NCBI RefSeq assembly: GCF_900109225.1
Contig: NZ_FNZK01000001.1
Span: 186,001-250,000 of the forward strand
Direction of reading: 5' to 3'
Origin: Propionispira arboris
Lineage (GTDB): Bacteria; Bacillota; Negativicutes; Selenomonadales; Selenomonadaceae
DNA: 64,000 nucleotides
A model generated the notes under the pieces. The model was given only the letters and a program-made list of their open reading frames with translations. It ran no database searches and was not told the DNA's origin. The translations under genes and the position numbers were made by a program. Below, in pieces: positions 18,160 through 21,277 of this stretch. Every line of letters begins with the position of its first letter. The stretch's first letter is position 1.

Positions 18160-18188
18160 TTGCAATCATCAACGGAATATGCTATTAT
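18160..18188 (+). promoter_or_regulatory. ompM1 promoter (extended -10)
   Basis: TTGCAA at 18160-18165 and TATTAT at 18183-18188 with 17-nt spacing; TGC directly before the -10 makes it an extended -10. The ompM2 promoter has the same architecture (TTGTAA, 17 nt, TGCTATCAT), which supports both calls. Initiation near 18195 gives a leader of about 118 nt. Confidence 0.75.
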
Positions 18189-18227
18189 AAAAAAGAACTT
18201 GAGATTGGATGAAGAGGAAAGACTTGG

Positions 18228-18269
18228 ATGAGGAAACGTGGATACTCAGCGAACGGTTATTCTTCCTAA
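18228..18269 (+). CDS. ompM1 leader ORF, 13 codons
   Basis: ATG 18228 to TAA 18269 encodes MRKRGYSANGYSS, with an AAGAGGAAAG purine-rich site at about 18211-18219. The ompM2 leader has an ORF of the same length and start (MRKRGNSANCSSF). Its stop codon lies in the 5' arm (18265-18271) of a hairpin whose 3' arm covers the ompM1 ribosome-binding site. The alternative is that the sequence is conserved as RNA structure; the differences between the two copies include nonsynonymous ones. Confidence 0.5.
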   Translation: MRKRGYSANGYSS

Positions 18270-18303
18270 AAAAATCGATAGTTCGAAAATAAATTTTAGG
18301 GGG
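18265..18303 (+). promoter_or_regulatory. hairpin occluding the ompM1 ribosome-binding site
   Basis: CCTAAAA at 18265-18271 pairs with TTTTAGG at 18294-18300, the latter overlapping the AGGGGG ribosome-binding site (18298-18303); an inner TCGA/TCGA pair can close the loop. A ribosome ending on the leader ORF would sit on the 5' arm and free the site. The ompM2 leader has an equivalent structure. Confidence 0.5.
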
Positions 18304-18312
18304 ATTTTTCAA

Positions 18313-19602: not shown

Positions 19603-19620
19603 TTTGAGATACAATATCAA

Positions 19621-19653
19621 AAAGGCTCTCACTTCGGTGAGAGCCTTTTTTTA
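19621..19653 (+). terminator. intrinsic terminator of ompM1
   Basis: AAAGGCTCTCAC and GTGAGAGCCTTT form a perfect 12-bp stem around a TTCG tetraloop, followed by a run of T. It ends ompM1 transcription before the separate ompM2 promoter. Confidence 0.95.
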
Positions 19654-19742
19654 CGTCAAATACCATATATAATAATGCATTAAAGAAATATAATACAACT
19701 CATATAGATAAATTGAGCATAAAAGATGTGCATTGGGTAAAA

Positions 19743-19806: not shown

Positions 19807-19835
19807 TTGTAATTAACAGCTTTACATGCTATCAT
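19807..19835 (+). promoter_or_regulatory. ompM2 promoter (extended -10)
   Basis: TTGTAA at 19807-19812 and TATCAT at 19830-19835, 17-nt spacing, with TGC before the -10. It matches the ompM1 promoter in layout, giving a leader of about 115 nt. Confidence 0.7.
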
Positions 19836-19871
19836 GAAAAAGAATTTGAGATTCATTGGAAGAAAACAGCA

Positions 19872-19913
19872 ATGAGGAAACGAGGAAACTCAGCGAATTG
19901 TTCTTCTTTCTAA
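19872..19913 (+). CDS. ompM2 leader ORF, 13 codons
   Basis: ATG 19872 to TAA 19913 encodes MRKRGNSANCSSF, the counterpart of the ompM1 leader peptide: same length, same first five residues and SAN core. The upstream GGAAGAAAA is a weaker ribosome-binding site than in ompM1. The stop codon again begins the 5' arm of the hairpin over the ompM2 ribosome-binding site. Confidence 0.5.
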   Translation: MRKRGNSANCSSF

Positions 19914-19945
19914 AAATTTAGAATTCATCAATAAATTTTAGGAGG
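19910..19945 (+). promoter_or_regulatory. hairpin occluding the ompM2 ribosome-binding site
   Basis: CTAAAAATTTA at 19910-19920 pairs, with one bulged A, with TAAATTTTAG at 19932-19941. The 3' arm overlaps the first two bases of AGGAGG (19940-19945). The arrangement relative to the leader ORF stop is the same as for ompM1 although the pairing is longer. Confidence 0.5.
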
Positions 19946-19955
19946 ACTTATTTTT

Positions 19956-21277
19956 ATGAAAAAAACTCTAATCACAGCGATCACAACTGCATTAGTAGTA
20001 GGCGCTGCCAGCACAACGTTTGCTGCTGCCAATCCTTTCAGCGATGTTCCAACAGACCATTGGTCTTATGATGCTGTCAGCAAATTAGCAAAAGACGGTG
20101 TTATTGAAGGTTATGGCGACGGATCATTCCGTGGTGACCAGAAAATCACTCGCTATGAAATGGCTCAAATGGTAGCAAAAGCAATGACAAAATCCGATGT
20201 TTCTGCTGCTGATAAAGCAATGATTGACAAATTGTCAGCTGAATATGCCGATGAATTAAACAACCTTGGTGTTCGTGTGACGAACCTCGAAAAAAATCTG
20301 ATAATGTTAAATTCAATGGTTTAATGCGTTTGGAAGGTACACGTTATAACAAAGCGTATAAAGGTAATGATGACATCGCAGGTACAGGCTTGCTTCGTTT
20401 AGAAATTAATGCCGCTGTTAATGATGACTGGTTAGTAAGAGCCCGTTTAGATGGACAAACTAGTTTGAATAATGATAATGGTACAATTGGCACATCGACT
20501 GGTAAAGACCAGGTTACTACCAAAAGAATTTTTGCTCAAGGACCATTATTTGGTGCAACAGCAAAAATTGGTAAATTTGGTACATTCGATAATGCTGCAT
20601 TAACCAATGGTGGTCTTATTATCGATAAAGAACTTACTGGGGCAGAATTTGCCTTTGGTAAAGCAGTAAAAACTACATTAACTTATGGTCGCATTGCAAA
20701 CGGGAGCATTCTTGGCGTAGTTGGTTCAAAAGCTGGTCAGGTTGCAGATTATGCATCGGCACAATTTAGCTATGCACCGACAAAAGCTTTAACCGTAGCA
20801 GCTGGTTATAATTATTTGAGTGATGATGGTTTCACAAATGTTAAATATGCCGGAAAAAACATAGGTGATAATTATGGTTTCTGGAATGCTGGTTTTGATT
20901 ATAAACTCACAAAAGATTTCACTTTTGGCGGTGTTTATGTAAAAAGTGATGCCGAAACAAATAATGCAACGATTAATTCCATTCAAGCCGATAGTAGTGA
21001 AGCTAAATCTTATTCTATACAGTTAACTTACAAAGGCGTAAAAGCCAGCGTTCCTGGTTCTTATGGTCTCTGGGCTGCTTATCGTCAGCTTGGTTCCTTT
21101 GCAACCATCAATACGACTTTTAATGGTGCTGAAACTGGCACAAAAGGGTATGAACTAGGCGCAATGTATATGCTTGATAAAAATATTTTATCCAAAACAG
21201 TTTACTATGATGGTGAAAATATCACGGGTGGTAAAGATATTAAAAAAGTATTCGAACGTCTTGAATTCGCATTCTAA
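19956..21277 (+). pseudogene. ompM2: SLH-domain porin OmpM copy 2, frameshifted in an A7 tract
   Basis: The first frame (19956-20324, 122 codons) encodes signal peptide, SLH domain and linker nearly identical to OmpM1, then departs after NLEK and stops. The second frame (from 20324 or read in from 20297) continues the OmpM barrel to the end RLEFAF. Comparison with ompM1 shows one missing A in the run 20290-20296: A7 is present where eight are needed for GAA AAA AAA TCT. Restored, the protein would be about 440 residues. The broken frame's TAA overlaps an ATG (TAATG at 20322-20326), so a barrel without a signal peptide could be reinitiated. Phase variation, recent inactivation and a sequencing error are all possible; both halves look otherwise well preserved. 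Confidence 0.9.

Follow-up and report, generated by a model that had tools for sequence, protein, structure and literature searches.

A conserved hairpin motif in the leaders of ompM porin-tether genes of Negativicutes: a candidate two-fold switch of translation

The tandem ompM genes of Propionispira arboris are preceded by leaders which, with a probability that we put at about 0.7, are structured cis-regulatory RNAs that set ompM translation through the choice between two folds. The genes lie in a stretch of 64,000 nucleotides (hereinafter, the window) from a genome of 4.26 Mb. Under this hypothesis, the first ~90 nt of the mRNA would form a long hairpin, the ON fold, topped by a tip stem and a 12-nt loop, GAAACRUGGANA; the 3' arm would then be tied to the 5' arm and the ompM Shine-Dalgarno (SD) sequence would be free, whereas in the OFF fold a strand of the 3' arm would pair with the SD instead. 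The loop would be the sensor, such that a small molecule or an RNA-binding protein bound there would shift the balance between the folds and hence the amount of OmpM, which is both a porin and an outer-membrane tether. We infer that the folds interchange in the cell, that the ON state is the stabilised long hairpin and that a trans-acting factor contacts the loop. The computational observations that carry the argument are the recurrence of the motif, paired changes in its stem, the pairing of the long arms, the blocking of the SD, the overlap of the two folds in most leaders and the association with a particular kind of gene.

Both genes encode SLH-domain porin-like products (Table 1), and the name OmpM is given for their apparent resemblance to proteins described in the accessible text of two papers (PMC5491611; PMC10628300). 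The SLH N-terminus of ompM1 is matched in 60 of 60 genomes of the class. The frameshift that splits ompM2 (window positions 20280-20330) adjoins a run of A and is either a sequencing error or the mark of a broken gene. On the 3' side of ompM1 (19620-19655), a terminator-like hairpin, GGCTCTCACTTCGGTGAGAGCC, followed by T can be recognised by eye, and ompM1 and ompM2 are therefore probably separate transcripts. To judge by its hexamers, the segment in front of ompM1 is a probable sigma-70-type promoter, from which the transcript would begin at about 18195; both candidate promoters would thus probably place the transcript starts at the feet of the respective long hairpins. Across 196 leaders, TATAAT-like hexamers (5/6) rise in number 36-40 nt ahead of the motif, where the 5-nt bin holds 38, compared to 11-25 in most bins further upstream and 3 in the bin that follows.

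Table 1. Features of the two ompM leaders and genes, in window coordinates
Feature	Start	End	Strand	Details
Candidate sigma-70-type promoter, ompM1	18160	18188	+	TTGCAA 18160-18165, 17-nt spacer, TATTAT 18183-18188; by eye
Long hairpin, ompM1 (predicted 5' end; ON fold, SD free)	18195	18284	+	-19.2 kcal/mol
13-codon ORF	18228	18269	+	Judged a by-product of the RNA motif
Tip of ompM1 hairpin	18229	18248	+	UGAG/CUCA stem closing the 12-nt loop GAAACGUGGAUA
Predicted switch strand (anti-SD), ompM1	18262	18271	+	Partner: 5' arm in part (ON) or SD (OFF)
Shine-Dalgarno region, ompM1	18294	18304	+	UUUUAGGGGGA; blocked in the OFF fold
ompM1	18313	19602	+	SLH domain and porin-type remainder; Pfam SLH 1.9e-13
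Candidate promoter, ompM2	19807	19835	+	TTGTAA 19807-19812, 17-nt spacer, TATCAT 19830-19835; by eye
Long hairpin, ompM2 (ON fold)	19842	19926	+	-18.8 kcal/mol, z -1.75, 10/200 shuffles equally good
Tip motif, ompM2	19873	19892	+	UGAG-GAAACGAGGAAA-CUCA
OFF hairpin, ompM2	19904	19946	+	Over SD AGGAGG (19940-19945); -8.7 kcal/mol, z -2.2, 11/200 shuffles
ompM2	19956	21277	+	Split by frameshift: ORFs 19956-20324 and 20324-21277

The original prediction for this locus held that a 13-codon leader ORF ends within a hairpin over the ompM1 ribosome-binding site. The elements of this description are present: ATG 18228 is followed by 13 codons and the stop TAA 18267-18269, and there is perfect pairing between CCUAAAA (18265-18271) and UUUUAGG (18294-18300), as part of a hairpin that covers the SD and in full comprises 10 bp, 18262-18271 with 18294-18303 (-11.1 kcal/mol, z -2.9, 3/200 shuffles fold equally well). 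The ompM2 leader follows the same plan, as had been proposed (ATG 19872 to TAA 19913, 13 codons, SD hairpin 19904-19946), but its sequence is different only in part because the block ATGAGGAAACGNGGANACTCAGCGAA is common to both leaders. The hairpin so described is the OFF hairpin of the present hypothesis. The prediction did not include the long hairpin at 18195-18284 (z -1.5, 16/200 shuffles equally good), which encloses the shared block and has bases in common with the SD hairpin; it is this block, not the ORF, that recurs in relatives.

In a search of relatives with the window leader, the 20-nt block TGAGGAAACGNGGANACTCA was found ahead of ompM in other genera, and the motif that emerges, (U)GAG-GAAACRUGGANA-CUC(A), tops the long hairpin at the predicted 5' end, with the ORF lying over it. 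Of 302 raw motif places, 262 were kept after curation, in which rows lacking an ORF with a signal-peptide-like start were dropped, as were, by a hand-set list, chance hits in taxa that are not related; 209 of the 262 are below 80% identity. The search patterns prescribed most of the motif columns, and the invariance of these columns is partly the result of selection. At the first position of the tip stem, these 209 leaders have G-C in 191 cases, A-T in 15 and other combinations in 3, and the outer pair, next to GAG/CUC, is T-A in 108, A-T in 34, C-G in 11 and G-C in 6, with 2 wobbles and 48 leaders unpaired. The two inner pairs are invariant throughout. Covariation was assessed over five pairs in 137 matches to a covariance model, R1 (see below), that make up 126 distinct rows, in an alignment that was itself fitted to R1: 89.6% of the cells pair, 48 cells are changed on both sides compared to 22.6 after shuffling, and the covariation score is 0.195 versus 0.081, neither value being reached in any of 500 shuffles. 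Two other counts are within the range of shuffling, namely, pairs with changes on both sides (3 versus 2.2; 154/500 shuffles as high) and pair types (10 versus 7.9; 37/500); a control with the stem slid by +3 exceeds the real stem in pair types (12 versus 10), and the fifth pair of the set is unpaired in 58 of 125 rows. RNAalifold applied to the R1 alignment recovered nothing beyond the 4-bp tip stem. In the ompM2 leader, the minimum free energy structure of the long hairpin lacks the UGAG/CUCA tip stem, which is assigned there by homology. One locus (L100) carries two copies of the motif, at 355 and 617, 262 nt apart, of which only the second directly precedes the ompM start; perhaps, this is a duplicated leader. 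In a scan of the window against Rfam 15, nothing passed the gathering score; with the limit relaxed to E 10, the sole match on either leader is on the minus strand (19865-19964) and far below the cut-off, and the leaders of six homologous loci gave none at E up to 1.

How widespread is the motif, and which genes does it accompany? The covariance model R1, built from 12 leaders, matches 288 of 341 Negativicutes genomes and 84 of 95 genera, often in multiple copies, at E<=0.1, where the chance expectation over the 341 genomes is about 34; among the matches listed, every place has an E value of 1.4e-6 or less. For the reading of motif places, 80 regions were fetched. At 111 of 130 distinct class-level places with the exact motif, a script found an ORF with a signal peptide within 170 nt, and 102 of these 111 ORFs are of the SLH type, that is, the element lies upstream of SLH genes, as described for the SLH motif discussed below. 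Three of the other places end at a contig edge, and 16 that the script missed were judged by eye: 15 read as starts of OmpM-type or porin genes and the remaining one (L080) looks like a damaged ompM copy. In the reverse direction, 30 loci were found by OmpM similarity (one each in 30 of 60 genomes), and 29 of them have an R1 match just upstream, including a partial one (L320, E 0.014); the sole locus without a match (L332/L353) belongs to a 1.6-Mb genome (G265) that may have lost the motif. Among 21 further loci, mostly weaker homologues (a set that includes L332 with its overlap L353, L350, which was not fetched through OmpM, and L354, a repeat of L134), R1 matches 12 (E<=0.036) and is missing in 9. 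From the comparison of these two sets, it follows that the element goes with the main porin-tethers and not with every SLH gene. Two other SLH genes in the genome of the window are among the nine loci without an R1 match. In Veillonella parvula SKV38, three R1 matches (E<=0.01) stand ahead of three tandem ompM-type genes; a fourth ompM has been described at a separate locus (PMC5491611, in the part available), and no fourth R1 match was detected in this genome. The motif, partly in the form AAGGAAAC..GG...CTT, was also seen before porin-like secreted proteins that lack SLH (L104, L112, L115, L116, L128, L095 and L098), as well as before SLH-less porin-like genes at L146, L159, L187 and L257.

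The motif extends beyond the Negativicutes. A pattern scan of named genomes yielded at least 119 stretches, among them places in records of Limnochordia, Candidatus Atribacteria and unclassified Bacillota, where the motif precedes SLH proteins or SLH-less porin-like proteins, along with apparent chance hits in unrelated taxa. In the phylum of the Atribacteria record, R1 (E<=0.01) matches 34 of 50 genomes; at ten loci from this phylum, the motif stands before an SLH protein in five and without a readable gene in two, and the pattern did not recover it in three. In the phylum of the Limnochordia record, R1 matched 25 of 101 evenly drawn genomes. Of 14 new loci, a number of strong ones lie ahead of SLH or porin-like genes; others, such as L309 and L317, look like chance matches, and some of the weak matches are probably due to chance as well. 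A single record labelled 'uncultured Clostridia bacterium' (L257) has the motif before a porin-like gene without SLH. One contig (C11 of genome G456; locus L306) carries four motif matches, of which the one that was read precedes an SLH protein, and may represent a further lineage with this regulation. On viral contigs, there were 21 pattern places, none of which stands before a recognisable porin in the ORF listing.

Below the tip, the arms of the long hairpin are not alignable and were tested by pairing. In the 209 leaders, the arms enclose the motif with 19.5 bp when paired with each other, compared to 9.8 bp if the 3' arm is taken from another leader and 11.2 bp after shuffling; when each genus or family group contributes a single leader (n=35), the values are about 20 versus about 11 bp (p ~1e-7). 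The hairpin of the original prediction was likewise tested across species by complementarity, in the 198 of 209 leaders that have a start 48-120 nt downstream. The SD-blocking segment fits its own SD best, with a rank-test p of ~5e-25 against the arms of other leaders and ~1e-34 against shuffled arms; mean duplex energies at n=198 are distorted by leaders without a duplex, and accordingly, rank tests were used. The leaders are related, so that these large-n p-values overstate independence, an objection that is addressed by the set thinned to one leader per group (n=35, drawn only from Negativicutes loci and the window), in which the median p is 2.7e-6 against other leaders and 3.5e-10 against shuffled arms, and the energies are -13.3 kcal/mol for the own SD, -10.2 for other leaders and -7.2 for shuffled arms, with duplex-less leaders set to zero. 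The claim that the leaders look regulatory and that a hairpin can hide the ribosome-binding site is supported by this conserved complementarity.

The SD-blocking pairing usually employs the 3' arm of the long hairpin. In 81% of the 197 leaders with a usable pair list, the 5' arm engages half or more of the SD-blocking bases when the ON fold is formed, so that by computation the two folds are mutually exclusive as in riboswitches; ompM1, at only 45%, falls below this mark and ompM2 reaches 64%. The energies of the two folds are close, with a median ON/OFF gap of -1.2 kcal/mol, 66% of the leaders within 5 kcal/mol and the ON fold the more stable in 59%; for ompM1, the values are -22.8 versus -20.3 kcal/mol and for ompM2, -18.8 versus -19.1 kcal/mol. 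This two-fold arrangement is, as far as sequence can tell, the layout of a translational expression platform. Folded as single sequences, the whole leaders of the window barely beat their shuffles (z -0.4 to -1.75), and the 5' part of the ompM1 leader folded alone has a z of +1.0; thus, the case rests on comparison. Transcription attenuation was also considered and rejected: the OFF hairpin of ompM1 is followed by a run of U (AUUUUU) and those of six leaders from other genomes are not, which makes a terminator unlikely as a general mechanism.

Could a constitutive structure explain these findings without a switch? A 5' hairpin could simply protect an abundant ompM mRNA from decay, with the SD pairing being incidental. 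The location of the hairpin at the 5' end, as predicted from the promoter position only, is compatible with such a role, and so is the report that the three tandem OmpM proteins belong to the most abundant outer-membrane proteins in V. parvula (PMC5491611, in the part available). A stabiliser should have no need of a 12-nt loop conserved across phyla, however, nor does it account for a leader-specific SD complementarity that exceeds the level set by composition, and we consider this explanation unlikely. An RNA thermometer, in which the SD hairpin would melt with temperature with no ligand involved, appears still more doubtful, with perhaps a slim chance of being correct: the SD-blocking hairpin is there, AU-rich in the window, and an ompA thermometer has been reported in Yersinia (PMC8245352, in the part available), yet both the conserved loop and the conserved competing hairpin would be superfluous for such a device.

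So what might the loop of the proposed switch bind? The loop sequence is recurrent and its complementarity to its own leader is at the chance level (z 0.27 and 0.01); a pseudoknot or kissing interaction with the own leader was accordingly discarded, and either a partner acting in trans or a local fold of the loop is favoured. The loop region contains two GGA triplets, that is, GGA in a hairpin loop as in CsrA/RsmA targets, and one of these is in an ACANGGA context, which we take to resemble a CsrA site. One possibility is thus that CsrA, or a small RNA that depends on Hfq, binds this GGA-rich loop and acts after transcription. In the class, CsrA is found in 126 of 214 genomes and Hfq is found in 132 of 174, so that either could play a part in the lineages that have it. 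Against this, CsrA was not found in any of nine chosen motif-bearing genomes (eight from six genera, and V. parvula) and Hfq was not found in five of the same nine (four of family f34, and V. parvula), the loop being kept throughout; CsrA was not found in G038-G042 and G117 either, despite motif matches at E 3.5e-6 or better. The motif persists in V. parvula and relatives in which neither protein was found, and we reject both as general effectors, leaving this route of control with a very small probability. It follows that the effector would be a small molecule, another protein or another factor common to these lineages.

We now turn to the central claim of the original prediction, namely, that the ompM ribosome-binding site is freed by a ribosome that ends translation of the 13-codon ORF within the hairpin arm. 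Both ORFs of the window are indeed 13 codons long with stops in the SD-blocking arm, and a TTG or ATG frame of 12-13 codons is kept in some relatives. Across the leaders, though, neither the start, nor the length, nor the stop position of the ORF is conserved. ATG, GTG or TTG occurs at the equivalent position in 99 of the 209 leaders (<80% identity) and ATG in 21, so that homologous leaders with no ORF, which the original prediction itself named as evidence against it, do exist; in the subset of 198, an NTG-type start is present in 96, a length of 13 codons in 7 and a stop inside the SD-blocking arm in 27, and the lengths scatter from 7 to more than 30 codons. ATG ORFs of 5-30 codons over the hairpin are no more common than in shuffled flanks (125/198 versus 128 +/- 7). 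Where the tip stem has changed on both sides (U-A to A-U or C-G; G-C to A-U), the start codon is abolished and the pairing kept, and the frame is lost wherever the stem pair is A-U or C-G. An NTG start arises because the stem begins with U-G and the base before it is unconstrained (C in 20 of 119). Of the leader as originally conceived, then, the SD complementarity is conserved and the ORF length is not; the ORF is probably a by-product of the conserved RNA motif, and we give control by a leader peptide hardly any credence. Weakest of all is a DNA operator, with TGAG-N12-CTCA bound by a transcription factor just downstream of the promoter: an imperfect palindrome close to the predicted start site is at hand, but its orientation to the gene is constant at places scanned on both strands, its conserved centre is asymmetric, the stem changes are paired and the flanking arms are complementary though not conserved, all of which leaves next to no room for this explanation.

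The leader RNA, common to most of the sampled Negativicutes, offers a direct handle on the amount of OmpM, and we saw nothing in the accessible text of the literature searched on how this amount is set. OmpM links the outer membrane to the cell wall and is a general porin in Veillonella, as stated in the available parts of PMC5491611 and PMC10628300. That genes of this kind carry the motif in Atribacterota and Limnochordia as well provides a regulatory trait, besides the proteins, with which to ask if the outer membrane descends from that of a diderm ancestor. A possible, if tentative, extension is that a single RNA sensor of ancient origin, passed down along with the OmpM tether, governs the synthesis of porins and tethers in the diderm lineages that tether through SLH, namely, Negativicutes, Limnochordia, Atribacterota and, going by the literature, perhaps Synergistota. 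The loop would then receive a signal of the state of the envelope by way of a ligand or a protein, neither CsrA nor Hfq, and the RNA would be a marker of the ancestral outer membrane of Firmicutes.

How does this leader compare with known systems? Translational riboswitches use expression platforms that sequester the SD, and the likeness is in a conserved aptamer-like core upstream of related genes, one strand of which can pair with an upstream arm or with the SD; the difference is that the conserved part here is just a short stem and a 12-nt loop, with ligand binding a candidate property, and this small size for a ligand aptamer counts against the switch reading. The 5'-UTR hairpin of Escherichia coli ompA is an mRNA stabiliser, and enterobacterial ompA leaders resemble ours, by description, in being structured 5' leaders of mRNAs for a major outer-membrane protein; to our knowledge, they have no class-wide conserved loop. 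The slpA gene of Thermus thermophilus has a long 5'-UTR that serves post-transcriptional autoregulation of an SLH-domain envelope protein, a likeness that is again by description only; we found no paper on this autoregulation in the literature searched. As for leader-peptide attenuators, the likeness is that a short ORF happens to sit in the window leader, and the difference is that its start, length and stop position vary freely among relatives.

The closest counterpart is the 'SLH motif' from Thermovirga lienii, a riboswitch candidate of which 80 examples were reported, in Synergistaceae, Clostridia and Negativicutes; about 60% of them precede SLH genes, and c-di-GMP has been a matter of speculation (Stav et al., 2019; PMC6429828, in the part available). 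Apart from that study, no motif of this kind was seen in the literature searched, and the accessible text of PMC8632094, on other Negativicutes motifs, and of PMC10628300 has nothing on the ompM leader. Both elements are candidate cis-regulatory RNAs upstream of SLH-protein genes (PMC6429828), and with fair confidence we regard them as the same, on a comparison by description; our element is probably the SLH motif or a superset of it. They differ in that the 80 published examples, about 60% before SLH genes, stand against 288 of 341 Negativicutes genomes here, often with several copies, and in that the places read here precede SLH or other porins. If the identity holds, the motif itself was already known as a candidate; what is added is its class-wide distribution, its occurrence in Limnochordia and Atribacterota records, a two-state SD platform that is conserved, the rejection of the leader ORF, the independence from CsrA and Hfq, and the restriction to porin-tethers.
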